From IMG/VR virus record IMGVR_UViG_3300043411_000411, positions 1-38,055 of that record: DNA of 38,055 nucleotides. The stretch is one strand, 5' to 3'. This stretch comes from a virus. A program made the position numbers and the translations under genes. The notes under the pieces are model-generated. The model was not told the origin of the DNA. It worked only from the letters and a program-made list of their open reading frames with translations, and ran no database searches. Below, piece by piece: positions 1,697-35,898 of this stretch (position 1 is its first letter; the number at the start of each line of letters is the position of its first letter).

Positions 1697-3595
1697 TTAT
1701 TCGCCAAGGGCTTTGCGGACCTTAGCTCGGGTTTTTGCATCTTTGATGCTCTTTGTTGCCAAGCGGAAGCTTGTCATAATTGGTGCAGGCACTCCAGCCG
1801 TACCGCTGATGGCTATGTCCATCATGCCGGCCAAGACGCTGGCTGTGTTGCTGGTATTCACAGCTCCTGCTGGGGTCGTCAACACGTCTTTGGCCACGTC
1901 ATTGATGGTCCGCAGCTGCTCAGCTCCTTTCTTGCCAAAGACAAAGTCCAATTTGCCAGACTTGTCAAGTTGTGTGATGACACGGTCGAGTTGGCCTGGT
2001 GACAGCACAGCGTTGCCAAGCTCATCGCGGCCTACACCCTTGGTGGCCTCATCACGCATGAACTTGAGCGTACCACCTTGCAACTCTTTCCAGGCTTGTT
2101 GGCCGTTTGGACCTTCTGTCTGAAGCAACCGACGCACTTGCCGCACCGTGTCAAGAGAGGTTGATGGGTCAATGACTGAACGGCGCAGCACATCTTCCAT
2201 GGCGATGGCACGATCATTTGAACCGCGTTTTTGGCCAAGTAAGTTCTTTACCAAGCCGATGTTCTCGTAGTCACTGCCAAACCGAGCACGTGCAGCACGC
2301 GCCTGCTTGTACATGTTTCCGCCCAGGCCATCAGTTGAGGCATCAATGAGGCTGCGCATCTGAGAAGCCTGCATGATGTTAGTTGGCTCGGCATTGGTTG
2401 CACCACCAATCGACCGGCGGAACAACTCGGCCGTCTTGAGAGTCACAGGTTGGGCAACCAGCGTTCCGTCAGGCGCCTCAGTGGCCACGCCAAGCTGCAG
2501 GGCCTTGGCACGTGTTGCTTTGAGTACGTTGGCAACCTCAGCCTCTGGGGCGTTGTCAACCAAGTGTTGGACCACTGTGTCAAGTTTGACAGGTGCCTCC
2601 ATCTCACCGGCCTTCTCGGCCTCCTTGTACAAGGTGCGGATGCGAGTTTTGTCACGGGCAGCTCGGTCACGAAGCGCTTTGTCCACGGTCAGGCCGATGG
2701 AGCGCAGGTCAGGAGCCTCAGCTCCAGTCATGTCAACAAAGGCCTCAAGGTTTTGCTGGAGTTGCTTGTTCTGAGTGGCAAAGCGTTCACGAATTGGTTC
2801 ACCAACATCTGGCAGCTTAGCTGTTTCGCGCTCAAAGCGCTGCTGCTCAAACTGGCGAGTCTTCTGGCCTTCAGTCAGCTTGATGGGCACAGGCAATTCA
2901 TCAGCTTTGGCTTGGCGCAGAGTGGCCATGTCAACACCAGCAGAACCACCAGAGGCTTGTGTGCCAGGAGTAGGACGCTTGGTCGTTGCACCGGGCATCA
3001 TCTCACGAATCGGCTCAGCAACCTTGGCAACAGCCTGACCAGCTCGCTTTGTGGCAGCAACTACAGGTGCGGCAACACGACCAGCCGTAGCTGCAATTGC
3101 CGGTGCCGCCATCTTAGTGCTGGCAGCTACCACTCCGACAGGACCAACAACTGGGATGACAGGAGGGACGTTCTGGAGCACTTCGCCGACGGCTTGTACT
3201 TGCTCTTGGCCTGACTGAGTGCGAGGGGCGTAGGTCAATGCCTGAGCTCCCTGCATGGCTGACTTTTGGACCAGGTTTGCAGCCTCTTGGCTACCGAACT
3301 GGCCAGACAAGATCTGCCCAGCCAGACCTTTCAACGTGCCGCCAATCATGCCCACAGTGCCGCCAGTGGCACCAGTGCCAATCGTCAGAGCAGCTTCACC
3401 TGCACCAATGATCTTCTCGCCAATAGACGGTTCGACGTATTCTTGCGTCGTACCAGGCACGATAGTGTCTGGGATTTGGTTTGTGGTATCTTGGCGCGCC
3501 TTGACGAGCACGGCAGCCAAGCGCCGAGCAGCATCGAGGTCACCCGCCTTGTCGGCGTTGACCAAGGCTTGCTCAAGTTCTTGGAGTGTTGCCAT
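1697..3595 (-). CDS. DNA ejection/injection protein, P22 gp16-like
   Basis: A 632-residue protein, close to P22 gp16 (about 609). It sits directly upstream of the tailspike and downstream of two other ejection proteins, as in P22. The N-terminal 60 residues are helical. Residues about 60-200 are rich in Gly, Ala, Val and Pro (GTGATGGTVGMIGGTLKG, then alternating AAPAIAATAGRVAAPVV), a membrane-interacting type of segment. The rest is charged and helical. Such proteins leave the capsid with the DNA and help it cross the envelope. The start overlaps the stop of the preceding gene by one base. The assignment rests on length, composition and synteny rather than on motifs. Confidence 0.75.
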   Translation of the reverse strand: MATLQELEQALVNADKAGDLDAARRLAAVLVKARQDTTNQIPDTIVPGTTQEYVEPSIGEKIIGAGEAALTIGTGATGGTVGMIGGTLKGLAGQILSGQFGSQEAANLVQKSAMQGAQALTYAPRTQSGQEQVQAVGEVLQNVPPVIPVVGPVGVVAASTKMAAPAIAATAGRVAAPVVAATKRAGQAVAKVAEPIREMMPGATTKRPTPGTQASGGSAGVDMATLRQAKADELPVPIKLTEGQKTRQFEQQRFERETAKLPDVGEPIRERFATQNKQLQQNLEAFVDMTGAEAPDLRSIGLTVDKALRDRAARDKTRIRTLYKEAEKAGEMEAPVKLDTVVQHLVDNAPEAEVANVLKATRAKALQLGVATEAPDGTLVAQPVTLKTAELFRRSIGGATNAEPTNIMQASQMRSLIDASTDGLGGNMYKQARAARARFGSDYENIGLVKNLLGQKRGSNDRAIAMEDVLRRSVIDPSTSLDTVRQVRRLLQTEGPNGQQAWKELQGGTLKFMRDEATKGVGRDELGNAVLSPGQLDRVITQLDKSGKLDFVFGKKGAEQLRTINDVAKDVLTTPAGAVNTSNTASVLAGMMDIAISGTAGVPAPIMTSFRLATKSIKDAKTRAKVRKALGE

Positions 3596-4890
3596 TAGCG
3601 GGCTCCTTGGGTGTACTTCTTCACAAGCGCATCGATGTCACCACCAGACGTGCTCACGGCAGGCGTGTCAGGGATGGTCTCAGGCAATCCGGCACGTGCA
3701 GTCATGTTCTTGCGTGCCTTCATGACCAAGCGCTGGGCTTCCTTGACGTTCTCAAGCAGGCGTTCAGGAGACTGCTTGAGGCTGAAGTTCTGCAGAGCAG
3801 CTTGGAGCTTCTCGCCTTCAGCGTTAGACAAAGCGCCCATGCCCTTGATGTTGGGGATCTGGGCCATGAACGACTGTGAGCCAAGCGTCTCAACCAGAGC
3901 CTCGAAGTCAGCTGTGTCCTGTGTGAGTGTGGGCATGCGCGATGACACTGGGCCAGCAGCTGAACCAATCACGCCAATCGGCGTCTTCAAGATGCGGTCA
4001 GCCGTGTTGAGCATGTTGTCCATGTTCGTGCGAGCAGACTCAAGATCAGCAGCTTTGGTACGCACGGCCTCATCACGCTTCTGGACCATGTCCTGCAACT
4101 TGAGTTGGTTCTCTTCGCGCTTGATCTGGTTGCCCTCACGAGCGATCTGAGCGTTCATGGCCGCGATGCCAGCATTCTGCTTGGCGATCTTGATGTCCTC
4201 TTGGATCTTTGTGATGTCCCAGCCTTTCTTCTGCAGGTCGAGCACGGCACCAGACTCGGCAAACTTGGCTTCGACTGCCGCCTTCTGGGCTTTGGCCTGA
4301 GACTCAGTCAACTTCGATGGCTGGAGTTCAGCGTCACGTTGTTCACCTTGAAGTTTGGTGAACGTCTCGGTGAACTTGTCAGGACCCATGGCCGAAGCCA
4401 AGAAGAGACCGGTCGAGGTCTTGGCTGTCTCAGGGCTTGTCTTGATCAGCATGCCCAGGTCCTCAAGCGTTTTGGCTTCACGCTCTTGGCCTGAGTTGCG
4501 ATAGGCCGTGGCCTGCTCAGTCAGCAGCTGTTGGGCAACCTCTGGCTTGTTGGATTGGAGCGCTGCATAGACCTGAGTGGCTTGCCCAAGACGCGAGTCC
4601 TTCTGCTCAGTGCTGAGCACGTCGTAGGTGCGCTTGAAGTTCTCACTCAGACTCGGGTACTTGACCATCATGCTGGCCAACGCTGATGGGGTTGGGTTCT
4701 TGGACAGGGTGCCAAGATCAGTTTCCATCTGCACCTGAGTCTCACGAGCTTTTTGGAGGTCAAGAGCTTTTTGCTCGGCAAGGTTGCGTTGAGACATCAT
4801 GTTGGAGATGTTCAAAGCGTTTTGGACGCCACCCATGACCGACTGAGTCGGATCTGGGACGTTGAGCATATAGTTGAATGGTTGTGCCAT
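3595..4890 (-). CDS. Ejection protein, P22 gp20-like position
   Basis: A 431-residue, mostly alpha-helical protein with a long Gln/Lys/Glu/Ala-rich coiled-coil section (about 170-290). Its C-terminal region contains FMAQIPNIKGMGALSNAEG, a segment I recognise as recurrent in podophage internal virion or DNA-transfer proteins. It lies between the gp7-like and gp16-like genes, the slot held by gp20 (about 471 residues) in P22. It probably forms part of the proteinaceous ejection apparatus. The ATG at 4890 lies close to the stop of the upstream gene, so the genes are likely co-translated. Function is inferred mainly from order. Confidence 0.7.
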   Translation of the reverse strand: MAQPFNYMLNVPDPTQSVMGGVQNALNISNMMSQRNLAEQKALDLQKARETQVQMETDLGTLSKNPTPSALASMMVKYPSLSENFKRTYDVLSTEQKDSRLGQATQVYAALQSNKPEVAQQLLTEQATAYRNSGQEREAKTLEDLGMLIKTSPETAKTSTGLFLASAMGPDKFTETFTKLQGEQRDAELQPSKLTESQAKAQKAAVEAKFAESGAVLDLQKKGWDITKIQEDIKIAKQNAGIAAMNAQIAREGNQIKREENQLKLQDMVQKRDEAVRTKAADLESARTNMDNMLNTADRILKTPIGVIGSAAGPVSSRMPTLTQDTADFEALVETLGSQSFMAQIPNIKGMGALSNAEGEKLQAALQNFSLKQSPERLLENVKEAQRLVMKARKNMTARAGLPETIPDTPAVSTSGGDIDALVKKYTQGAR

Positions 4891-4891
4891 G

Positions 4892-5536
4892 TTAGAACAC
4901 CTTCAGAGCTTTGAGCGTGGCGACATTGCCAATGGAACCGCCGATATTTCCCCACATTTGGGCTTGGGCCTGACCTTGGGCCAGAGCAGCACCTGCCGCA
5001 GCCTGGCCTTGTTGAGTCAGAGCATTGCCAATGTTGGCGCCAGTCTGTTGGGCTGCAGCAGCTTGACCGGCAGCAGAAGCTTGGCCCAATCCTGAGATGG
5101 AACCAAGTTTGCTGAACTGAGATTCGATCAACTGACTCAGGAGCTGTGGGCGAAACTGAGCCAGAGTAGCTTGTACATTGCCGCCGCGAAGTCCGCCAGT
5201 TGCCGACGCGTTTTGCAAGATGGCGTTCTCACCTTGCTGCATCATTGACTGAAATTGAGGCGATGATTCGATACCGGCAATTGCTTGTTGTTGAGCTGCC
5301 GGTCCTGCAAGACCGAGTAGACCTTGTTGGCCACTGATGGCCTGCTCACCAGCTCCTACGTAAGGTGCCAGCAACTTTTGAACGGCGTCGAACTGACGAC
5401 GCTGCTCCTCGATTGATGCCTGGCTTGCGGCAGTCTGAGCCCCGGCAGCTGATTCAGCAGCATCAGACTGAGCGTTGCTGGACATCACGCCAGTGATGAC
5501 TGATCCGGCCACGACAGCCGTTGCGATTCCACTCAT
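4892..5536 (-). CDS. DNA transfer protein, P22 gp7-like
   Basis: A 214-residue Ala/Gln/Gly-rich protein of P22 gp7 type (about 229 residues). It begins with a short hydrophobic stretch (ATAVVAGSVITGVM), followed by repeated Ala-Gln helices and Gly-rich turns such as GGLRGGNVQATLAQFRPQ. The N-terminus and composition fit the phage DNA-transfer family, whose members are packaged and ejected early. It starts at 5536, overlapping the end of the cupin-SET gene by four bases (ATGA), and precedes the gp20- and gp16-like genes, so the three ejection genes form a coupled set. Confidence 0.75.
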   Translation of the reverse strand: MSGIATAVVAGSVITGVMSSNAQSDAAESAAGAQTAASQASIEEQRRQFDAVQKLLAPYVGAGEQAISGQQGLLGLAGPAAQQQAIAGIESSPQFQSMMQQGENAILQNASATGGLRGGNVQATLAQFRPQLLSQLIESQFSKLGSISGLGQASAAGQAAAAQQTGANIGNALTQQGQAAAGAALAQGQAQAQMWGNIGGSIGNVATLKALKVF

Positions 5537-6399
5537 TGGGATTCTCCTTCGATTAAATTGATGCCTGAGAGGGCGAGAGCTTGCCTGTAGTCAACTGTGA
5601 CCTCTTCACCTTGACTGCCGCCGGCACAACCTGCGATGCGTTGAGTGGCGATGAGCCAGATGTCTCCGCTCTGGTCCTTGACAAACTTCGCATTTGGGGT
5701 TTTTGCGTGGTTGGTGTACCGTCCTGCAGGAGTCCTTAAGCCATCTATTCGTGCAGGGGCGATGACTTCACCCACCTCAACTGGGGCGCTCAGGAAGACA
5801 CCCTTGCCCTCGATGGCTGAGTCGCGCACTGTGAACTTTGGCGCGAAACCTTCTGGCATCTTGATCTGGTCATGTGGGTTCTCAGATTGAGCGCGCACGG
5901 TCTCATGGTTGAAGCCGGACAACTTGACAACCAAGTCAAAGTCTTCGCGGTCTTCACGCCGATGGTAGGTTTCAAGCTGCTTAGCTGCTTCAGCATGGGC
6001 TTGCCATGTGGAGCTCTTGTCAAGGAACATGGACTCGAGCTTGTCGATGTCGCGCTCCTCAGTGGCGTAGACGTTTTGCCAGATGCAGGTCTCAAGGACG
6101 TAGCCAAGTTTGCGCCCAGGCTTGCCAACAAAGATCATTGGTGCACGGAGCACCTTCGTCTTGCCATCGTCGCCGACCATGACAACAGCGCCTGTCAGCA
6201 TGATGTTGAGGTGTTCAAACCGCTGCGCGTGGCCAATGGCAAGTGTGCCGGCAGGCAGGGTGACTTCGCGGATGTAGATGCCGGGACCGAAGTGGTGGAC
6301 TACTGGGCACTCGACTTGAGGCAGGTCCAAGAGGTGGGATTCAACCTGCTCAATTTTAGCAGGGTCCACAATGTGGTGGGATTTGGCTTCAGCCAGCAT
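5533..6399 (-). CDS. Cupin-like plus SET-domain fusion protein in the virion module
   Basis: A 288-residue protein with two recognisable parts. Residues about 30-125 look like a cupin/RmlC-like beta-barrel (GPGIYIREVTLPAG, IGHAQRFEHLNIMLTG, then KPGRKLGYV). Residues about 185-275 look like a SET lysine-methyltransferase domain: the start motif GKGVF at 198-202, RYTNH at 227-231 (the SET R-F/Y-x-N-H motif) and VTVDYR at 267-272 (the usual T-x-D-Y end motif). SET enzymes use S-adenosylmethionine to methylate protein lysines. The AAGGAGAG site five bases before the ATG is excellent, and a promoter lies just upstream. The placement with ejection genes suggests it is either a virion component or modifies one, or that it acts on a host protein. 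Substrate unknown. Confidence 0.72.
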   Translation of the reverse strand: MLAEAKSHHIVDPAKIEQVESHLLDLPQVECPVVHHFGPGIYIREVTLPAGTLAIGHAQRFEHLNIMLTGAVVMVGDDGKTKVLRAPMIFVGKPGRKLGYVLETCIWQNVYATEERDIDKLESMFLDKSSTWQAHAEAAKQLETYHRREDREDFDLVVKLSGFNHETVRAQSENPHDQIKMPEGFAPKFTVRDSAIEGKGVFLSAPVEVGEVIAPARIDGLRTPAGRYTNHAKTPNAKFVKDQSGDIWLIATQRIAGCAGGSQGEEVTVDYRQALALSGINLIEGESQ

Positions 6400-6484
6400 T
6401 CAAACTCTCCTTTTCAGGGCGGTATGAGCTGCTGGCTGCTCGTTAGGCTCAGCTGCTGTGGCGTCTAGCACCACAGGTGGTCAG

Positions 6485-6514
6485 ATACTAACACAAGTCT
6501 GGCCACCTTGTAAA
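6485..6514 (-). promoter_or_regulatory. Candidate sigma70 promoter for the SET/ejection/tailspike genes
   Basis: On the minus strand TTTACA (6509-6514) is followed after 18 bases by TAGTAT (6485-6490). The -35 and its preceding G match the GTTTACA element of the rightward promoters. It lies in the 118-base gap before the cupin-SET gene. The -10 is imperfect (4 of 6), so this is moderate evidence. Confidence 0.45.
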
Positions 6515-6517
6515 CCT

Positions 6518-6853
6518 TTAGGTTATTTCGCGGCCCGAGGCAGAGATGGTCAATGCGCCAGCCGACCCAGCCAATGTGGAGATGAACCCACCAGATTCAA
6601 GAACTTGGCCAACAAGCTCTGGGCAGGTGTAGGTCTCATTTGGAGCAATGGACCGAGTCTTCAGAACCAGGTTTGGCGCACCAGCAACTCCTCCGCTTGC
6701 CACAAGATTTGCGCTGAACGGAACATTGCCAACACTGGTATTTGTGACCGTGAACTTGTCGATGATTGTCTTGCAGTTTGTGGCAGTGTATTGACCTGTC
6801 TGAGCGGCCTCAGCTTGCTTGCGTGGGATGATGTTTACGACTGTGACTGTCAT
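6518..6853 (-). CDS. Small beta-rich virion-associated protein, unknown function
   Basis: A 111-residue protein with a strong AAGGAG ribosome site six bases before the ATG. It has no motif I can name. Its alternating hydrophobic and Thr/Ser/Asn-rich segments (TVTNTSVGNVPFSANLV, ETYTCPELVGQ) suggest a small beta-sandwich. It is encoded between the fibre gene and the cupin-SET gene, so it is probably a tail or head accessory protein. The gene ends just before the promoter at 6485-6514, which may make it the last member of the upstream transcription unit. Confidence 0.6.
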   Translation of the reverse strand: MTVTVVNIIPRKQAEAAQTGQYTATNCKTIIDKFTVTNTSVGNVPFSANLVASGGVAGAPNLVLKTRSIAPNETYTCPELVGQVLESGGFISTLAGSAGALTISASGREIT

Positions 6854-6862
6854 GATGACTCC

Positions 6863-8431
6863 TTAAACGATGTATGTGAAATTGCCCATGAGACGAAAAG
6901 ACGTCCCACCAGGATATGTGGCGTCAGTCTTGCCGATGTACGTGGCGTCTGTTGCCGCAATGGTCTGACTCATTGTATTGAACCCAAGAACGTCAGTCTC
7001 CATGCCAGTACCAAACCCACGTTGTGATGGCGTAAACGGATTGCCAGTCAACTTGATCTGCCCGGCGCCAGTTCCGTTTGCGCCAAACAAGATGTTGTAG
7101 GTGCAATACACCGTGCGGCCAATTTTCGTGTAGGTGCCTGATGCAGAAGCAATCGACGGCGGTGTTATTCCTGGGATGGTTGCCGTTGCAACAGGAGTCC
7201 AAGTTCCTGTCGAGTAGTCAGTCAAAGCCGCAGTGCCAAGACCAAGGTTGGTTCTGGCCGTGGCGGCACTGGCCAAATCAGACAAGTTTGAAGCAGACTT
7301 CAATTGAGCGTCGTTTGTCACGTTGCCAAGACCAACCTGCGCTTTAGTCACTGCGTGCGGGTTGCTGACATTGCCAGTGTGGGCGTTAAGTTCTGCCTGT
7401 GTTGCCATGTCAACAGCGAAACCTGGGTTGGGGTATGTTCCGCTGAGTACGCCACCGGCTGCACCAGATGGAGCTGCACTGGAGACGGTAATTGTGATTG
7501 ACCCGTCAGCATTGGTGATGGCAACGTTGGTGCCTGCAGTCAACCGAGCGTTTTTCCAAACTCCAACAGTTGCGTCGTAGATCAGCAAACTGCCGGCCAA
7601 AACCGGGTTGGTGATCAAAACGTTGTGCAACTCATCAAGTTCGTAGCCGTTGTCCACCTTAGTAAAAATTTCACCGTTGCCAGCTGACTTCTTGGTGCAA
7701 TATCCAACTGTGACCATGTGTTGTGGTGCAGTTGGTTTGACATTAGTTATTGCTCCGGCCACCGTTGGTGACAGGTAGAGGACGTCGCCCTCGTTGAAGG
7801 CTGAAGTGTTGAGACCGCGAACTTGCCCAAATGTCGTGATATACCCTTGGCCATTTACGGCAATGGGTTCAGTCACAATGCCAATGGTACTAGCTGAAGT
7901 CACATCAGAGGCGGCAATTGCACGTTTGACAAGCAGATTCGCTCCAGCAGCACCTGAAACATAAACAACCTCGCCATCTGTGAGCGGCGTAGCATCGTCG
8001 TTCTTGACAATCAGGACATTTTCTTGGCCAATTTGGAGTGTGACGTTTCCGCCCTTCAACCCAAGATCAAGCGTGCCGTCAGTATCATTCCACTTCAACC
8101 GTCCAACCTTACCAACAGGTGCGGGTGCAGATGGGTTGATGTCAATGTAGTCAACGTCAATAAAATTATGGCGCTGCTCAGTGACAACTGCCGATGCCAG
8201 CATGTCTAACGAGTTTGCTATCCGCACAATCGAGTCCAAAGCCTCATTGGCTGAAGATACAGCAGAGGCAGACTCAAGCGAGGTCTCTTCAACTAAGCGA
8301 GTCAATGCAGCAATGTCGGTTGGAGTCAGGTTGCCAGCAACTGCAAACAACCGTTCAAATAGCTTGATAGACTCCGCGTCTGGCAAGAACTTGGCAAGCT
8401 GGTCTCGTGATGGTGGTTTTGGATCTGCCAT
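6863..8431 (-). CDS. Tail fibre or tail-needle-like protein
   Basis: A 522-residue protein following the gp10-like gene, where P22 places its tail needle gp26, but about twice gp26's length. The N-terminal 90 residues are helical with heptad-like spacing and could bind the tail hub. The middle is a Gly/Ala/Val/Thr-rich beta domain. From about residue 345 it has classic fibre repeats (VSNPHAVTKAQVGLGNV, then NLSDLASAATARTNLGLG), and a C-terminal beta domain of about 100 residues suits receptor binding or trimerisation. The ATG at 8431 was preferred over a TTG two codons upstream; it lies three bases after the upstream stop. It could be a second receptor-binding protein beside the tailspike. 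Confidence 0.72.
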   Translation of the reverse strand: MADPKPPSRDQLAKFLPDAESIKLFERLFAVAGNLTPTDIAALTRLVEETSLESASAVSSANEALDSIVRIANSLDMLASAVVTEQRHNFIDVDYIDINPSAPAPVGKVGRLKWNDTDGTLDLGLKGGNVTLQIGQENVLIVKNDDATPLTDGEVVYVSGAAGANLLVKRAIAASDVTSASTIGIVTEPIAVNGQGYITTFGQVRGLNTSAFNEGDVLYLSPTVAGAITNVKPTAPQHMVTVGYCTKKSAGNGEIFTKVDNGYELDELHNVLITNPVLAGSLLIYDATVGVWKNARLTAGTNVAITNADGSITITVSSAAPSGAAGGVLSGTYPNPGFAVDMATQAELNAHTGNVSNPHAVTKAQVGLGNVTNDAQLKSASNLSDLASAATARTNLGLGTAALTDYSTGTWTPVATATIPGITPPSIASASGTYTKIGRTVYCTYNILFGANGTGAGQIKLTGNPFTPSQRGFGTGMETDVLGFNTMSQTIAATDATYIGKTDATYPGGTSFRLMGNFTYIV

Positions 8432-8433
8432 GA

Positions 8434-9837
8434 TCAATACGCCAAAGGTTCAACGCGTGCCTCAAGGCGCGCAAATGATAGGTGGGCCTGACTATCTCCA
8501 CTGAAGCGTTGGATCCTCCAGTTGCGCATGCTTCCTTGCTGGAGCCATGACAGTCGTTTGGTACGATCGCCCTGCTTGCCGGCCTTGATGGTACGCAACT
8601 GGCTCCAGTTCTCACCATCAACCGAGTACGAGGTGCTGATCGCTGGGTCCTTGCCAAACTCAACGCGGCCCGTCAAGGCAACAAGCTCGAGCTCATGGAA
8701 GATAGCACCACGGCCTTCGTTGTACACGATCATCGTGCCAAACTCCCAGCGCACGTCATCGCCATAGTGGGACGAGATGTTCTCAACAAGGTATCCGTGG
8801 TTGCTGGTCGTTGGGTCACCGCATAGCCATTTGTTGTAGCACCAGACAAAGTTGCGCGCACGGTACTTGCTGAAACCTTCCAGACTAGAAGTCAGATGAA
8901 ACCAGACTGGTTCTTGGAGCTGCTGTGAGGCTGCAGCATCATAGACTATGGTTCGATCGGGCAAGTGGACATACAGGTGCTGATGGCTTTTGTCATTGCG
9001 GGCTTCGACAACACAGTGAGACAACTCCTCTTCCGTGTACTGGGCCAAGATCTGGTCGACTTCCATCGTTGCCACTTTGGCGGCACCAGCATTGGCACCG
9101 AGGTAGATCGATGGCGCCTCATTGCGCCCGCTGCCCACAAACGCGATCGTGTCAGCAAAGACGCAGCAGGCATACGTGCCAACAACGCCTTTCTGAACTT
9201 GAGCGCCTTCGATCCGCTGGAATGGAAAGAAGTCTCCACCAATGTTGTCAAAGACCTCAATGGTGTTGCGGTTCATGGCGTAGACCTCATTGCGCAGCTT
9301 GAGGAGTGCGACAACAGGATCAGGATCTGCTTCTGAGCTTCCGTACTTCAGTGGGTTGACGGCAAATGGGTTGTTGAGCTCAGTGACAATGAGGAACTTG
9401 CCATCAGTTGTCATGAAATACCCGTCGACCCACACAAAGTCTACAACGGTGCCGAGGTCGCTGTCATCGACGCGTGTGAGTGTGATGTTGTCGTAGTAGA
9501 ACAGACTGCCAGCTGACGAGATGGCCAATCGATCAAATGAGTAGTCAAACGTGACTGACAGGTTGTCGTTGTAGACATCGCCAAGCACGATTGTTGAGCC
9601 GTTTTCAGTAATGCGCACAAGGTTGCTGCCCATCACTCGGTAGCACTGGCCATTCCAATTGATGCCACCACGGTCAATGCCTGGACCGGTGCCCAACTGA
9701 GCAATGCCGTCAGCCGGGCGCAGGTATCCGTTGGAGATTCCCTGCTCCTTAGGCACTGGTACCATGTTGACGGGGTACGACGTACGGAAGTCTGGGCCTC
9801 CATCCGTGTAGACCCCGCTGAGGATCGGGATTTGCAT
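8434..9837 (-). CDS. Packaged DNA stabilisation / tail hub protein, P22 gp10-like
   Basis: 467 residues, almost the length of P22 gp10 (about 472), the hub protein that plugs the portal and carries the tailspikes. Several segments parallel gp10 as I remember it: SYPVNM near the start, VQKGVVGTY, ADTIAFV, APSIYLG, and YTEEELSHCVVEAR followed by HLYVHLPDRTIVYDA. AAGGAGA precedes the ATG. It is placed after the gp4-like gene and before the fibre, as expected for the connector, which is good evidence for a P22-type tail machine. Confidence 0.88.
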   Translation of the reverse strand: MQIPILSGVYTDGGPDFRTSYPVNMVPVPKEQGISNGYLRPADGIAQLGTGPGIDRGGINWNGQCYRVMGSNLVRITENGSTIVLGDVYNDNLSVTFDYSFDRLAISSAGSLFYYDNITLTRVDDSDLGTVVDFVWVDGYFMTTDGKFLIVTELNNPFAVNPLKYGSSEADPDPVVALLKLRNEVYAMNRNTIEVFDNIGGDFFPFQRIEGAQVQKGVVGTYACCVFADTIAFVGSGRNEAPSIYLGANAGAAKVATMEVDQILAQYTEEELSHCVVEARNDKSHQHLYVHLPDRTIVYDAAASQQLQEPVWFHLTSSLEGFSKYRARNFVWCYNKWLCGDPTTSNHGYLVENISSHYGDDVRWEFGTMIVYNEGRGAIFHELELVALTGRVEFGKDPAISTSYSVDGENWSQLRTIKAGKQGDRTKRLSWLQQGSMRNWRIQRFSGDSQAHLSFARLEARVEPLAY

Positions 9838-20977: not shown

Positions 20978-21193
20978 ATGCGTTGTTATCTCGTTCAAGG
21001 CGGTGGCCGCAAGCGCTACGCCAGCACAAATGCCGATGCAACGGCAACCCGCAACACCATCGTCGAAGAGACGGGTGCCAAGAAGAAGGACGTCACCATC
21101 GAGCAGACCGACATCCCGGTCGCCAAGGCAGACCTGCTTGAGTTCATCAATGGTCTGTGTGCTGAGACCGATGCCAAGGAAGAAGTAGAATGA
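20978..21193 (+). CDS. Small hypothetical protein upstream of thyX
   Basis: 71 residues with AAAGGAG before the ATG and a 4-base overlap (ATGA) with thyX. It starts MRCYLVQGGGRKRYASTNADA, with an alpha/beta appearance (strand, helix, strand, helix) of a small folded domain. No known motif. The tight coupling to thyX suggests a related role or shared expression only. Confidence 0.6.
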   Translation: MRCYLVQGGGRKRYASTNADATATRNTIVEETGAKKKDVTIEQTDIPVAKADLLEFINGLCAETDAKEEVE

Positions 21194-21849
21194 GCCAAGT
21201 CCGTCTGATCGCATTCACCCAACCGATTGAGTTGGAAGGCGTCCAGACGGGCGAGGAGCTGGTGGCCTACTGCGCACGGGTTTCAAACCCTGCCAATCAG
21301 GCCAACCATGAAACAGCTCCTCGTCTGCTCAACTATCTGGTCCGCAACCAACACTGGTCTCCATTTGAGATGGCCCATGCAGTCATCGAGATCCAGACGA
21401 CTCGTGACATTGCACGCCAGATTCTGCGCCATCGGTCCTTCAGCTTCCAAGAGTTCAGCCAGCGGTATGCTGAAGTCGTGGCCGATCCTGTCCTGCGCGA
21501 AGCCCGTCTGCAGGATACCACTAACCGCCAGAACAGCACTGAGTCTCAGGACTTCGCGCTGCGTACATGGTGGGATGACCAACAAGCATGGCTCGCTGAG
21601 CAGGCTGTGAAGGTGTACCAAGATGCTCTGAACCAAGGTATCGCCAAAGAAGTTGCTCGTGCCGTCCTGCCTGAGGGCCTGACACCATCGCGCCTCTACA
21701 TGTCTGGCTCAGTTCGCAGCTGGATCCACTACATCCAACTCCGTGCCGGTAACGGAACACAGAAAGAGCATCGTGAGATTGCCGTCATGTGCAAACTGGC
21801 CTTGCTCCATGTCATGCCTTCAATCAAGGAGATCCTCGATGCGTCGTAG
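21190..21849 (+). CDS. thyX: FAD-dependent thymidylate synthase ThyX
   Basis: 219 residues. It contains the diagnostic RHRx7S motif as RHRSFSFQEFSQRY (80-93), preceded by NQHWSPFEMAHAV and followed by a conserved C-terminal RSWIHYIQLR. ThyX makes dTMP from dUMP with FAD, NADPH and methylenetetrahydrofolate. It matters for interpretation that this genome also has a ThyA-fold gene at 35116: with dTMP already provided here, the second enzyme is free for another reaction. It starts with an ATGA overlap with the previous gene. Confidence 0.95.
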   Translation: MSQVRLIAFTQPIELEGVQTGEELVAYCARVSNPANQANHETAPRLLNYLVRNQHWSPFEMAHAVIEIQTTRDIARQILRHRSFSFQEFSQRYAEVVADPVLREARLQDTTNRQNSTESQDFALRTWWDDQQAWLAEQAVKVYQDALNQGIAKEVARAVLPEGLTPSRLYMSGSVRSWIHYIQLRAGNGTQKEHREIAVMCKLALLHVMPSIKEILDAS

Positions 21850-23737: not shown

Positions 23738-24505
23738 ATGAAGATTGAAATTAAATGCCGGTTCAGCGGCAGTGTTCTGTTCTCGCATGAGGCTGAGGGC
23801 AACACTACACGCTTGACTCTGGAGGCAGCGGTCTCTGCTTGTGCCAACCTGCACGGTGCCAACCTGGTCCGCGCCAACCTGCACGGTGCCAACCTGGACG
23901 GTGCCAACCTGGACGGTGCCAACCTGCACGGTGCCAACCTGGTCCGCGCCAACCTGGTCCGCGCCAACCTGCACGGTGCCAACCTGGTCCGCGCCAACCT
24001 GGACGGTGCCAACCTGGACGGTGCCAACCTGGACGGTGCCAACCTGCACGGTGCCAACCTGGTCCGCGCCAACCTGCACGGTGCCAACCTGGTCCGCGCC
24101 AACCTGCACGGTGCCAACCTGGTCCGCGCCAACCTGCACGGTGCCAACCTGGACGGTGCCAACCTGCACGGTGCCAACCTGGTCCGCGCCAACCTGGACG
24201 GTGCCAACCTGGACGGTGCCAACCTGGACGGTGCCAAGATCAAAGATGATTGCACCTTGGTTGGCGGCCGCCCAATCTTTCAAATCGGCCCCATCGGTTC
24301 ACGTTGTGCCTACTTCGTTGCCTACATCACAGACAAAGGTTTGCGGTTCGATGCTGGTTGTCAGCATCAAATCACACGTGAAGTCTTCGAATCTCGTTTG
24401 CAAGACGACCACGGAGATAACATCCACGCCAAGGAATACAAAGCTGCTTTGGCCCTCATCGACATCCATGCAGAACTCTGGTCTGCAGACAACAAGGAAG
24501 AATAA
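23738..24505 (+). CDS. Pentapeptide repeat protein
   Basis: 255 residues. After a 35-residue head come 26 uninterrupted pentapeptides of only three kinds (ANLHG 9, ANLVR 8, ANLDG 9; residues 36-165), then a degenerate AKIKD and a 90-residue C-terminal domain (GSRCAYFVAYITDKG, later HGDNIHAKEYKAALALI) that I have seen after other pentapeptide arrays. A(D/N)Lxx repeats build a square right-handed beta-helix of four units per turn, here about 6.5 turns. Some family members mimic DNA and bind gyrase (Qnr, MfpA), but the function here is unproven. GAGG precedes the ATG and middle promoter 2 drives it directly, so it should be well expressed. Confidence 0.9.
   Translation: MKIEIKCRFSGSVLFSHEAEGNTTRLTLEAAVSACANLHGANLVRANLHGANLDGANLDGANLHGANLVRANLVRANLHGANLVRANLDGANLDGANLDGANLHGANLVRANLHGANLVRANLHGANLVRANLHGANLDGANLHGANLVRANLDGANLDGANLDGAKIKDDCTLVGGRPIFQIGPIGSRCAYFVAYITDKGLRFDAGCQHQITREVFESRLQDDHGDNIHAKEYKAALALIDIHAELWSADNKEE
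23843..24232 (+). repeat. 26 tandem 15-bp units
   Basis: Each unit is GCCAACCTG followed by CACGGT, GACGGT or GTCCGC, with no other variation at any position, including third codon positions. This implies recent expansion or homogenisation. The array is 390 bp, so a short-read assembly could have collapsed or miscounted units. Confidence 0.95.
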
Positions 24506-30113: not shown

Positions 30114-30478
30114 AAGAATCGAAGATTGAACGCGATGCCGTTGACCTGGCGTGGAAACACCTCGGGATCATCGGTTCAAAACTCGTGACGCCGGGCGACA
30201 CAGGGTACCCAGATAGAATTTTCTGGGTTCCCGGTGGTCGTCCGTTGTTGATTGAGTTCAAGCGGCCAGGCGAAGAGCCCGAGCCAAAACAAGAATACAT
30301 CCATGCTCAGCTCAAGCAGCTGGGTTACCAAGTAGAGGTACACGACAATGCAATCCGAGCTTTTTCCTCCGTCATCGAAGCCGTGGCAACCACACGCCTA
30401 CCAAAAGAAGGCCGTCAAATTCTTGCTCGAGCACGCAGCATCTGCTCTGTTCTTGGATCCAGGGCTGGGCAAGACTAG
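30110..30478 (+). CDS. VRR-NUC domain nuclease
   Basis: 122 residues. The core GDTGYPDRIFWVPGG (D35) and PLLIEFKRPGEE (E49, K51), then QEYIHAQLKQLGYQV, is the VRR-NUC PD-(D/E)XK fold found in phage structure-specific nucleases and FAN1. The last 43 residues overlap the helicase gene in a different frame (131 nt). The first part of that overlap (AFSSVIEAV) may be the domain's last helix, while the rest is probably incidental. The start is coupled by ATGA. Confidence 0.85.
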   Translation: MKESKIERDAVDLAWKHLGIIGSKLVTPGDTGYPDRIFWVPGGRPLLIEFKRPGEEPEPKQEYIHAQLKQLGYQVEVHDNAIRAFSSVIEAVATTRLPKEGRQILARARSICSVLGSRAGQD

Positions 30479-31817
30479 CATCACGCTGGCCGCCATCAAA
30501 CTGCTCAAGCAAAAGAAGCTACTGGACAAGGTCTTGCTTATTGCGCCAAGGCGTGTCTGTGACCTCGTCTGGCCACTGGAGGTCAATAAGTGGACTGACT
30601 TCGGAGGACTCAAGGTTGTGGTCCTACACGGTCCGCACAAGGATGCATTGCTAAAGACTGAAGCAGACATCTACGTCATCAATCCTGAGGGTCTTGACTG
30701 GCTTCTACAAGCCAAGAAGACCAAGACTGCTCAGGGTAAGACCAAGGTCGACGTCGATCTGCGCCGCTTCAAGAACCTGGGCTTTGACACGCTGGTTGTC
30801 GATGAGCTGTCCAAGTTCAAGCACACCAACACCAACCGCTTCAAAGGTCTGAAGCTGGTTCTCAGCGCATTCCGTCGTCGTTGGGGCCTGACAGGTTCAC
30901 CTGCCTCCAATGGTCTGCTCGATCTGTTTGGCCAGTGCTTCATCCTTGACCAAGGCCGCACGCTTGGCCCGTATATCAGCCACTACCGCATGAAGTACTT
31001 TGTTCCAAGCCACGACGGCTTCAGCTGGAACATCCGTGAGGGTGCTGAGGACGAGATCTATGAGCGCATCAGCCCTCTTGCTTTGCGCATGGCTGCTGAT
31101 GACTACCTTGACATGCCCACTCTCATTGAGAACAACATCCGCGTCGACCTCCCATCGAACGTAATGACCATGTACAACCAGCTCGAAGAAGACCTCATTG
31201 CCAAGCTTGACTCCAAGGTCATTGTTGCTTCAACGGCAGCGGCCGCTTCTATGAAGTGCAGGCAGGTGGCCAATGGTGGCATCTACCTTGATCCTGACGT
31301 GCAGGCACTGATCAAGCTGCCAAAGTCTAGTCGTGAATGGGTGAACCTGCACACTGAAAAGGTCGATGCTTTGGCCGACCTGATTGAGGAACTCCAAGGG
31401 TCGCCGCTGTTAGTGGCCTATGACTTTGCGCATGACCTTGACAGACTGCAAGAAAAGCTCGGCAAAGAGGTGCCATATATTGGTGGCGGTGTTAGTACCA
31501 AGCGCACAGCAGAACTTGTCGGCCAGTGGAATGCCGGTAAGCTTCCAGTGCTGCTTGGCCATCCTCAAGCCATGGGGCACGGGTTAAACCTGCAAGAGAT
31601 GGGTCATCATGTTTGCTGGCACTCAATGACATGGGACTACGAGCTCTATGACCAGTTCATCCGCCGCGTTCTTCGCCAGGGCAACAAGAGCAAAAAGGTC
31701 TTTGTCCATCACATCATGGCCCGTGGGACAATTGATGAAGTGGTGCTCGCCGCTGTGAAGTCAAAGCGCCGTGGACAGAATGCTTTGTTTGACGCGCTCA
31801 AAAAATTACGCAAATAA
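30348..31817 (+). CDS. SNF2-like DEAD-box helicase
   Basis: 489 residues. A Q-like N-terminus PHAYQKKAV leads to Walker A GLGKT (39-43), motif II DELS (152-155), motif III LTGSPASNG, and the C-terminal domain ends with a QGNKS element before VFVHHIMARGTID, a typical phage SNF2/SWI2-type helicase ending. AGAGG precedes the ATG at 30348, which lies inside the VRR-NUC gene. The pairing with VRR-NUC is recurrent in phages and suggests joint processing of branched DNA. Confidence 0.9.
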   Translation: MQSELFPPSSKPWQPHAYQKKAVKFLLEHAASALFLDPGLGKTSITLAAIKLLKQKKLLDKVLLIAPRRVCDLVWPLEVNKWTDFGGLKVVVLHGPHKDALLKTEADIYVINPEGLDWLLQAKKTKTAQGKTKVDVDLRRFKNLGFDTLVVDELSKFKHTNTNRFKGLKLVLSAFRRRWGLTGSPASNGLLDLFGQCFILDQGRTLGPYISHYRMKYFVPSHDGFSWNIREGAEDEIYERISPLALRMAADDYLDMPTLIENNIRVDLPSNVMTMYNQLEEDLIAKLDSKVIVASTAAAASMKCRQVANGGIYLDPDVQALIKLPKSSREWVNLHTEKVDALADLIEELQGSPLLVAYDFAHDLDRLQEKLGKEVPYIGGGVSTKRTAELVGQWNAGKLPVLLGHPQAMGHGLNLQEMGHHVCWHSMTWDYELYDQFIRRVLRQGNKSKKVFVHHIMARGTIDEVVLAAVKSKRRGQNALFDALKKLRK

Positions 31818-32802: not shown

Positions 32803-33445
32803 GAAACAAGCATCGGCAGTCATGCCATGCCACGACCATAACAGACGAACCTGCATTCAGGTTGATCGCTCTGCTGGTCTCGTCAAGTTTATCCCGCTAG
32901 ACATCATCCTGGGCCTTGAGGTCCATTCGACGTCGGCGGACTCATTCGACCAGCGGTTCACGCCGATGGAAGGATACCCCGTTGAAAAGGCATGTCAGCT
33001 CTTTGTGAACTACAGCCAGACCCTCGGGGCAACAAAGGAGGCCATGGACTACCTTGGCCAAATCATCAACGTGAGTAAACAGGAGCTTGAAATGGCTACC
33101 ACCAAAAAGCAAACCGTGGCTGAAAAGCCCGCTGCCGCCAAAGCAGTGAAACCTGTCGCAAAGAAGGCGGCAGCAAAACCAACCAAAGTCAAGGCCGGGC
33201 GCCGTGCCGTCGATCCAGTTGTAAAACCAGCGGCCAAGTCTGCCAAGCCCGGCGAAAAGAAGCCGTCAGCTGCACAGATGTTCCAAGATCTGATCATGGC
33301 CGGCAAATTGACCGATGACCAAATCTTTGAGAAGGTCCAAGCTGAGTTTGGTCTGGACGAGAAGAAGCGCGGCTACGTCAAATGGTACCGCAACCATCTG
33401 AAGAAGTCTGGCGCCAATCCGCCCGAAGCCAAGGTGGCGAAGTAA
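32792..33445 (+). CDS. Two-part basic protein with HTH-like C-terminal domain (paralogue B), possible internal start
   Basis: 217 residues. Residues 1-100 are a separate domain (PCHDHNRRTCIQV, then FIPLDIILGLEVHS) without a known match. From residue 101 comes ATTKKQTVAEKP, a long Ala/Lys/Pro linker, and a C-terminal domain homologous to paralogue A (KAGRR...D.VV, LIMAGKLTDDQIFEKVQ, YVKWYRNHLKKSG). The in-frame ATG at 33092 has a perfect AGGAG six bases upstream, so a shorter 117-residue protein may also be made, or two genes have fused by losing a stop codon. Confidence 0.72.
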   Translation: MATKKQASAVMPCHDHNRRTCIQVDRSAGLVKFIPLDIILGLEVHSTSADSFDQRFTPMEGYPVEKACQLFVNYSQTLGATKEAMDYLGQIINVSKQELEMATTKKQTVAEKPAAAKAVKPVAKKAAAKPTKVKAGRRAVDPVVKPAAKSAKPGEKKPSAAQMFQDLIMAGKLTDDQIFEKVQAEFGLDEKKRGYVKWYRNHLKKSGANPPEAKVAK

Positions 33446-33454
33446 CACGGCACC

Positions 33455-33478
33455 GAGGCGACGCCGATAAGTCGCCTC
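33455..33478 (+). other. Perfect 8-bp hairpin in leader
   Basis: GAGGCGAC (33455-33462) and GTCGCCTC (33471-33478) enclose an 8-base loop in the 68-base gap before the methyltransferase gene. No T-run follows, so it is not a standard terminator; it may stabilise mRNA or be an RNase III site. Confidence 0.7.
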
Positions 33479-33513
33479 ACTCAACGGCTCCCATTCAAAA
33501 TAAGGACACCATC

Positions 33514-34332
33514 ATGCCAAAAGCACCTACTAAAGAAGCATCACGCGATGCTCGCGACTATGACACCACACAACTGCACGAAGCCGGCCATGGCCGCACG
33601 TTGCACCGCGACTATTCCGCCCACTTTTGGCGCTGGAGCTTTGCCCGTCGCTTCATCACGGCCAAGCACAACGTGCTCGAAGTCGGTTGCGGCGAAGACA
33701 AGCCACTCAGCAAGATTCTCACAGGCGGCGCAGCAGCTCATGTCAACCACTACACTGGCGTGGACCTCAACAAGCTGAAGCCGTCCAACAGCCAACGCCT
33801 CCAGTTCCTGGGCGAGTTCAACTTTGTTGAGCGCTACAAGGAACTCCTCAAGGCGCGTCCTGAGGGCTTCGATGTCGTGGTCAACTACGAAGTCATCGAG
33901 CACATGAAGGTTGAACATGGCGCCAACCTGCTCAAAGCCATGTTTGCGGCCACCAAACCGGGCGGCGTTTTGCTGCTCTCGACACCTGTCTACGACGGCG
34001 TTCGTCATGCCAAGAACCACATCCATGAATACAAGGTGCCTGAGTTGCAGGCTGCCATTGAGAAGTCTGGATACGTCATCGAACGCCGCTTCGGTACATT
34101 CATGGACATCAAGCACATTGGCAAGGTTGACCCAACTGGTTGCAGCAAGGCGGCCGTGTTGGAAGTTCGCAAGGCGTTGGAGCAATACTTCGACAGCGAC
34201 GCCATCAGCAACATCTTTGGCCCATTGCACGAAGACCATGCGCGCAACAACCTGTGGGTGTGCCGCAAAGCAGCTGATGGTAAGCCAGTCAAGCCTGCAG
34301 CTCGCAAGGCAACGAAAGGAGCGCCGTTCTAA
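33514..34332 (+). CDS. SAM-dependent methyltransferase, class I
   Basis: 272 residues from the ATG at 33514. The SAM-binding fold has motif I VLEVGCG (54-60), an acidic GVDL (82-85), NYEVIEHM (124-131, UbiG-like) and KPGGVLLLSTP (148-158). There is no DNA-methylase catalytic motif (no DPPY or PCQ), so this is not a classical DNA base methylase. It resembles small-molecule or protein methyltransferases. Its gene ends with a one-base TAATG overlap into the nucleotide cluster, so it may act on a modified nucleotide. The C-terminal 20 residues are basic and disordered. Confidence 0.85.
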   Translation: MPKAPTKEASRDARDYDTTQLHEAGHGRTLHRDYSAHFWRWSFARRFITAKHNVLEVGCGEDKPLSKILTGGAAAHVNHYTGVDLNKLKPSNSQRLQFLGEFNFVERYKELLKARPEGFDVVVNYEVIEHMKVEHGANLLKAMFAATKPGGVLLLSTPVYDGVRHAKNHIHEYKVPELQAAIEKSGYVIERRFGTFMDIKHIGKVDPTGCSKAAVLEVRKALEQYFDSDAISNIFGPLHEDHARNNLWVCRKAADGKPVKPAARKATKGAPF

Positions 34333-34724: not shown

Positions 34725-35113
34725 CTCGTAAAGGAACTGATATGAAGACCAAGTCTTTGTTGCCCGCCACTCAGCTGGCTGAATGCTCGACCGTTGAACT
34801 GCTGGAAGAGCTCCAGTCTCGCGGTGGTCATCCCGGTGCGCTGGCCGAAGCAGCTTTGCTCTGCGTCCGCAAGAGCCAAGACTACAACCAAGGTGCTGCG
34901 GACATGGATCCTCACAAGATCGATCGCTCGTCGTACTTCCCATTTGGCGCAGTGAGCTATGCTCAGATGCTCCATACCAAGTCTCAGCGCTTCAACTCGC
35001 TGGTCCTCAAAGAGATGCGTGGCCAAGACGCGAACTTTGAAGGCCTGCGTGACACGGCACTGGACATCATCAACTACGCCGGCTTCTTTGCTGGCGCCTA
35101 CACGAAGGATTGA
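34718..35113 (+). CDS. Nmad1/DUF1599-like nucleotide modification protein
   Basis: 131 residues from the ATG at 34718; the in-frame ATG at 34742 (AAAGGA six bases upstream) is about as good. The conserved-looking core runs from KSQDYNQGA through SYFPFGAVSYAQMLHTKSQR to LRDTALDIINYAGFF, which matches my memory of the DUF1599 family, renamed nucleotide modification associated domain 1. Such proteins recur in loci predicted to make hypermodified bases. Biochemical role unknown. The closeness to the ThyA-fold gene (two-base gap) supports that context. Confidence 0.6.
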   Translation: MVTRKGTDMKTKSLLPATQLAECSTVELLEELQSRGGHPGALAEAALLCVRKSQDYNQGAADMDPHKIDRSSYFPFGAVSYAQMLHTKSQRFNSLVLKEMRGQDANFEGLRDTALDIINYAGFFAGAYTKD

Positions 35114-35115
35114 TC

Positions 35116-35898
35116 ATGGACTTCTCAAGAACTTGGCTCAACGCCATCAATGACATTCTGACCAACGGCGACCCAGTAGCGCCGCGCGGCAAGATGACTC
35201 GTGAGATTCCCCAGCGCACCATGGTGGTCGATATGCGTCGCCCAGTGCTTCGCATTCCTGACCGCAGCCTGAGCTACAAGTTCATGGCAGCCGAAGCCTT
35301 CTGGATCCTGTCTGGTGATGACCGTGTCGAGACCATCTCGCCCTACAACAGTCACATCAAGGACTTCAGCGATGATGGTGAACGCTTCTTCGGAGCCTAT
35401 GGCCCCAAGATCAAAGCTCAATTGCCCTACATTGTTGAAAAGTTGATGACAGATGAAGACAGCCGGCAGGCTGGCCTGACAATTTGGCGCGAATGTCCTC
35501 CTGATACCAAGGATGTGCCGTGCACCGTGGCCATCTTCTTCAGCATCCGCAGTGGCAAGCTCAATGCCCATGTGTTTATGCGGTCCAGTGACGTCTGGCT
35601 CGGTGTTCCCTATGACGTGTTCAACTTCAGCATGCTCAGTCACTTGGTCTGCGGTCTACTGAACGAGCACCGCAAGTTCGACAATGCTGTGAAGCCTGGC
35701 CGCCTCTTCTTGACGGCGGCATCAAGCCACTTGTACGAGACCAACTGGGCGGATGCTAAGTTGTGCTTGGCCAGTGAGGTCCTTGAGCAACCTGAGACTG
35801 AGATGGTGCTCTGGAATGACGCAGCGCACTTGATGAAGGTCTTGGAAGTTTTGCGTGACAGCAAGGTCGGTGACGAACTTCGTTGGTGGGAGCACTGA
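35116..35898 (+). CDS. ThyA-fold protein with dCMP hydroxymethylase signatures
   Basis: 260 residues. It aligns by eye to ThyA: E60 in AEAFWILSGD, C136 (nucleophile) in VPCT, R156-S-x-D159 in MRSSDVWLGVPYD, and HLY at 205-207. Two differences are telling. The residue after the Cys is Thr (His in E. coli ThyA), and the position of ThyA Asn177 is D167. T4 dCMP hydroxymethylase (gp42), as I remember it, has Cys-Thr and Asp in these places, and the pattern KLNAHVFMRSSDV is close to its KINAVVNMRSNDV. So dCMP to 5-hydroxymethyl-dCMP, using methylenetetrahydrofolate, is the best guess. ATG at 35116; the frame extends to an unlikely TTG at 35110. Confidence 0.75.
   Translation: MDFSRTWLNAINDILTNGDPVAPRGKMTREIPQRTMVVDMRRPVLRIPDRSLSYKFMAAEAFWILSGDDRVETISPYNSHIKDFSDDGERFFGAYGPKIKAQLPYIVEKLMTDEDSRQAGLTIWRECPPDTKDVPCTVAIFFSIRSGKLNAHVFMRSSDVWLGVPYDVFNFSMLSHLVCGLLNEHRKFDNAVKPGRLFLTAASSHLYETNWADAKLCLASEVLEQPETEMVLWNDAAHLMKVLEVLRDSKVGDELRWWEH

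Follow-up and report, generated by a model that had tools for sequence, protein, structure and literature searches.

A cupin-SET fusion gene at the gene 14 position of P22-type phage virion operons, a candidate protein-modifying cassette

Results

Organization of the locus

The window analysed here is a stretch of 38,055 nucleotides from a virus (IMG/VR record IMGVR_UViG_3300043411_000411). Its minus strand carries an ORF with an ATG start whose product combines a cupin-like barrel with a SET domain (Table 1), and whose stop overlaps the start of the following gp7-like gene by 4 nt. In phage P22 the gene order is 10-26-14-7-20-16, while in the window gp10 is followed by a fibre gene, p111, the cupin-SET gene, the gp7-like gene and the genes at the positions of gp20 and gp16. 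Comparison of the two orders puts the cupin-SET gene in place of gene 14. The location between tail and ejection genes, as originally predicted, was confirmed by the Pfam and PHROG matches of the neighbours. P22 gene 14 (PF11039 DUF2824, PHROG 651) lies in the same slot, between the tail genes and gene 7. The cupin-SET protein gave no PF11039 or PHROG 651 match in the Pfam and PHROG comparisons, and no relation to P22 gp14 in sequence or fold was found.

Table 1. Features of the cupin-SET gene and of the surrounding virion operon.
Feature	Position	Strand	Evidence or remarks
P22 gp10-type packaged-DNA stabilisation / head closure Hc3	8434..9837	-	PF11134 E 2.7e-41
Tail-fibre-type protein	6863..8437	-	PHROG match
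p111, 111-aa conserved protein, left flank of slot	6518..6853	-	shared with slot relatives
Promoter TTTACA-18-TAGTAT, TG before -10	6485..6514	-	predicted; hexamers conserved in window and 16 relatives
Leader element GCTGAG-N12-CCAGCAGC, 26 nt	6428..6453	-	between promoter and RBS; precedes unrelated slot genes in many phages
RBS AAGGAG	6407..6412	-	read from sequence; aligned among relatives
Cupin-SET fusion gene	5533..6399	-	288 aa; PHROG 34170, function annotated unknown; phrog_34170 E 8e-92
RmlC-like cupin domain at the N-terminus, flanking helices included, residues 14-148	5956..6360	-	profile and structure matches
Helical linker, residues 149-184	5848..5955	-	AlphaFold2 model secondary structure
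SET domain, residues 185-277	5569..5847	-	Pfam, structure and profile matches; dN/dS 0.073
GxG motif (GKG, residues 198-200)	5800..5808	-	both Gly in 152/152 homologues
NHxxxPN motif (residues 230-236)	5692..5712	-	N230 in all readable; H231 150/151; N236 150/151
ExTxxY motif (residues 266-271), presumed catalytic Tyr271	5587..5604	-	Tyr271 in 150/150 readable
gp7-like DNA ejection gene, right flank of slot	4892..5536	-	PF25688 E 2.5e-12; phrog_598 E 6e-40
Ejection-type protein, P22 gp20 position	3595..4890	-	phrog_2534 'released from the phage upon host infection' E 1.8e-30
632-aa protein, P22 gp16 position	1697..3595	-	no family match (Pfam, PHROGs)

The SET domain

The fusion of a cupin-like barrel to a SET domain, claimed in the original prediction, was borne out by an AlphaFold2 model (pLDDT 88.7; 29 homologues), by structure matches and by profile searches. 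A single-sequence search of the PDB gave no match. The SET part scored just below threshold with Pfam PF00856 (21.3 bits against a cut-off of 22.4; E 3.8e-4), and a profile built from the 29 homologues matched SET structures of the MLL family (E 1.5e-9) and vSET (E 6e-5). In structure comparisons residues 180-280 of the model matched SET domains with Z about 10; superposition on the MLL1 SET domain gave Z 10.9 and an rmsd of 2.0 A over 81 residues with 28% identity. The structure search placed residues 185-280 in the SET fold.

The three predicted SET motifs were all present (GKG at 198-200, RYTNH at 227-231 and TVDY at 268-271). Among 152 unique fused proteins, residues G198, G200, N230, H231, N236, E266 and Y271 were retained in nearly all readable sequences, and no loss of the SAM-binding and catalytic motif residues was seen across the homologues. 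In 17 close sequences (the window and 16 relatives) dN/dS was 0.029 for the cupin part and 0.073 for the SET part, values that indicate strong purifying selection, on the SET part too.

The SET fold and the SAM-binding and catalytic motif residues are what the phage protein has in common with vSET (PBCV-1 A612L) and with the MLL and EZH2 lysine methyltransferases; vSET, moreover, is likewise small and viral. In contrast to these enzymes, the phage SET domain is fused to a cupin, has an extra loop (GCxGG) before GEExT, and belongs to a phage of bacteria, a setting without histones. It is also minimal: hardly any SET-I insert separates the first half from NHxxxPN, and only about 17 residues extend beyond Tyr271. 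In a domain of this size the channel for the substrate would have to be supplied by the cupin or by a partner chain.

SET domains had been described as uncommon in phages. This held for cultured phages, where a SET-only search found matches in 10 of 50,697 records, but not for environmental phage contigs, where the same kind of query retrieved at least hundreds of relatives. With the whole protein as query 54 viral loci were obtained, 49 of which encoded the fusion in full or nearly full length; the homologue sample consists mostly of environmental contigs, and its counts vary with the way loci are fetched. In 80 loci listed for the SET-only query, SET was fused to the cupin in all except one (L129), and judged by these loci SET and cupin are standing partners. 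At L129 (5827-6689) the two are encoded by separate genes in reverse order, with SET first and overlapping the start of the cupin gene.

PHROG 34170 and the cupin-SET products of Rhodoferax phage P26218, Pseudoalteromonas phage PH1 and the Manatee Spring podoviruses are the nearest known counterparts, all with the same two domains. In P26218 and PH1, both of them cultured, the gene lies directly upstream of a DNA ejection gene, as in the window. These proteins are annotated as hypothetical, except that one record labels its protein a PBCV-1 methyltransferase structure, and no function for them was found in the literature searched. Searches on phage SET proteins in general and on the function of Bbp23 (see below) returned nothing relevant either. 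A further relative was encoded on a 369-kb contig of a Paraburkholderia metagenome-assembled genome. This genome (L203/G001) contained three matches, two of them cupin-SET-like and the third cupin-only; they probably lie in prophages.

The cupin domain and its relatives

Residues 28-112 of the model aligned to cupins (Z up to 10.0; Foldseek E 2.9e-5) with a double-stranded beta-helix fold. The cupin profile had no match among PDB chains by sequence, such that the likeness is one of fold only. The canonical cupin motif for metal binding, G(X)5HXH(X)3-4E(X)6G, is not preserved: the corresponding region reads GHAQRFEHLNIMLTG, in which one His agrees with the motif, Gln replaces the second His and His replaces Glu. 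In the homologue alignment H57 was invariant and H63 was present in 20 of 21 sequences.

By sequence the domain is homologous to PHROG 12032 (phrog_12032 E 2e-32), groups also with PHROG 24280, and is related to Bbp23 of Bordetella phage BPP-1 (PHA00672); the labels of the two PHROGs, short tail fibre and tail fibre adhesin, are annotation only. In P22-type phages members of this family lie between tail and ejection genes, as the cupin-SET gene does. They differ from it in lacking SET, and BPP-1-type members instead follow a GNAT gene and precede the portal gene. Cupins without SET were found at the same place in many phages, among them Vibrio phages, Thalassomonas BA3, Shewanella X14 and locus L050, whose cupin is 54% identical to that of the window. 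On a cupin tree, which is based on few columns and has rough support values, five or more changes of the SET label fell on well-supported branches, and L050 was nested within SET-bearing rows. This pattern suggests that SET was lost, gained or both on repeated occasions.

A GNAT gene was located directly upstream of BPP-1-type cupin genes, overlapping or abutting them, in all 15 IMG/VR loci with upstream DNA as well as in BPP-1 itself (bbp24) and in MW202722. Acinetobacter phage MD-2021a has a GNAT-cupin pair of its own. With SET fused, SET adjacent or GNAT adjacent, the cupin family thus pairs with amine-modifying enzymes in more than a single way. In one cupin-SET phage (L044, 8650-9291) an extra GNAT gene was present shortly downstream; its product is 50% identical to the GNAT of MW202640.

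Promoter and leader

A promoter of its own had been proposed for the cupin-SET gene, and a site was indeed predicted in the 118-nt gap upstream of it. Two such sites were found in the stretch where 0.8 were expected, and the prediction is therefore weak if taken alone. Both hexamers, however, were unchanged in 17 of 17 aligned sequences despite near saturation of synonymous sites in the gene (mean dS about 1), which supports the predicted promoter by conservation.

Between promoter and ribosome-binding site lies the conserved leader element. An Rfam scan gave no match on the strand of the gene, to a SAM riboswitch or to any other known one; the leader folded no better than shuffled sequences (z -0.9), and its consensus hairpin displayed almost no covariation. 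Given these results, the element could just as well act as DNA. A scan with a strict form of it retrieved at least 120 viral stretches, and nearly all of the 78 loci new to the analysis had an ORF within the 90 nt after it.

Exchange of genes at the gene 14 position

The genes following the leader fell into unrelated families. Among 74 usable products, 47 were a helical protein of 151 aa, 13 were P22-gp14-like or GNAT-like, 12 were cupins with or without SET, and two resembled aspartyl hydroxylases. The gp7-like gene was downstream in nearly all of these loci, and p111 or gp10 upstream in most. Since this first sample had been chosen by the leader, the slot was resampled by means of p111. The 66 loci with both flanks then comprised cupin-SET (14), cupin (13), GNAT (12), P22-gp14-like (12) and helical (10) genes; the remaining five had none of these, which suggests that the function is not universally needed. 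The slot with its leader had been missed in the original prediction, whose account of domains, motifs, position and promoter stood.

Loci L025 and L319 were 96.7% identical over a stretch of 3,986 bp that reaches into the first codons of the slot gene; identity was 87% from just past this gene, and 27% between the cargo proteins. Judged from these alignments, this is a clean exchange of a whole gene. At two loci (L291 and L294) the slot contained two genes: the first encodes a protein like aspartyl/asparaginyl beta-hydroxylases (PF05118 E 4.5e-17 in L291), and the second is a GNAT-like ORF. The helical protein (phrog_21390; for example L284, 5149-5601, minus strand), which was found most often when loci were chosen by the leader, has an invariant FDDVADGD motif; Foldseek returned no convincing match for it (best E 0.54; an isoprenoid synthase with E 1.1 and TM 0.54).

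The family related to P22 gene 14 is an alternative occupant of the slot. P22 gp14 itself matched PF11039 and PHROG 651 only. It is annotated as a head assembly or morphogenesis protein, and no biochemical role or mechanism was found in the literature searched. A link of gp14-like proteins to acetyltransferases is moderately supported at best, by a match to PHROG 1249 (E 1.4e-6), a sub-threshold RimI-type match (E 0.077) and a motif. A relationship of the P22-gp14-like proteins to the bbp24-type GNAT was not significant with hhalign, and T7 gp13, which has an analogous position, exhibited no profile similarity to GNAT.

Discussion

The cupin and SET folds of the model, the conserved motifs, purifying selection on the SET part, the conservation of promoter and leader, and the exchange of cargo can be brought together if the cupin-SET gene is an exchangeable protein-modifying cassette in the gene 14 slot of a P22-type virion operon. 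We tentatively adopt this reading, while regarding it as somewhat short of probable. The SET domain would bind SAM and methylate lysine, and the cupin may hold the enzyme to the tail or to the assembly of ejection proteins. The substrate would be a phage protein made late, of the ejection, tail or assembly type, that is altered during assembly. Such methylation would parallel the acetylation or hydroxylation possibly carried out by other occupants; the reading is suggested by the company in the slot, where GNAT, hydroxylase-like and gp14-like genes all occur beside gp7. The commonest occupant of the leader-based sample argues against a cassette of this kind, as the helical protein (47 of 74) is no recognisable modifying enzyme. 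The minimal form of the SET domain and the five loci with none of the known cargo weigh against it as well. When a substrate lysine specific to SET-carrying phages was sought in gp7, p111 and the gp20-type protein, none was seen in gp7 or p111 and nothing clean emerged. Two lysine positions of the gp20-type protein were enriched in SET-carrying phages (0.85 versus 0.16 and 0.76 versus 0.20), values that are confounded by relatedness.

The exchange of cargo is open to a different interpretation, namely that the slot is a moron site for host-facing genes and that the cupin-SET protein, whether expressed from its own promoter or ejected together with gp7 and gp20, serves takeover or counter-defence by methylating a protein of the host. 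Like morons, the cargo is exchangeable, is sometimes absent, can be replaced between close genomes (L025/L319) and has a predicted, conserved promoter inside a structural operon; no terminator-like site was detected after the gene. Host proteins could also be the targets of the GNAT and hydroxylase folds, and the repeated change of SET presence on the cupin tree, with L050 among SET-bearing rows, would fit as well. Against it stand the linkage between slot and gp7-like ejection gene, which extends over divergent phages, and the fused cupin, which belongs to a family annotated as tail or structural and is conserved without SET. We consider a host-directed effector possible but unlikely. That same annotation of cupin homologues as short tail fibre or structural, the cupin-only versions at the same place (L050, L319, Vibrio phages) and the minimal SET with no evident post-SET channel would instead be expected if a tail or assembly protein used the SET fold as a non-catalytic module to bind a lysine-bearing partner or a SAM-like ligand. 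However, the motifs GxG, NHxxxPN and ExTxxY, which catalysis needs, are kept almost perfectly in 152 sequences, and SET was gained or lost as a unit. Finding different genes in the same slot also favours a cassette of modifying enzymes and carries some weight against a fixed structural part. A purely structural or adaptor role seems rather doubtful. A transient role as a regulatory or assembly chaperone, with incidental enzyme-like folds, is suggested by the annotation of P22 gene 14, whose slot this is; we regard it as improbable, as the unrelated folds in the slot have an enzymatic flavour in common, not a chaperone fold.

If the protein-modifying cassette is accepted, it could be part of a wider arrangement in which the gene 14 slot of short-tailed phages is a dedicated station for protein modification. 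Lysine-methylating (cupin-SET), acetylating (GNAT, gp14-like) and Asp/Asn-hydroxylating enzymes would be swapped there behind one conserved leader and act on the DNA-ejection machinery or on the first host targets. This extension we hold to be doubtful.

In the literature searched, no description was found of SET lysine methylation within a bacteriophage virion or infection programme. The pattern of exchange connects a gene of a classic phage operon, P22 gene 14 (DUF2824), with enzyme-like genes. Nearly identical flanks with different cargo offer a direct genetic test of modification, and the conserved leader provides a handle for finding further occupants of the slot.

Some other genes of the phage were noted on the plus strand of the window. 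Two thymidylate synthases are encoded, one of the ThyX type (PF02511) and one of the ThyA type (PF00303) (21190-21849 and 35110-35898), together with a pentapeptide-repeat protein of 255 aa (23738-24505; PF00805 E 1.9e-45). The replication half contains genes for a protein with a class-I methyltransferase domain (33382-34332) and for an SNF2-type helicase (30348-31817).
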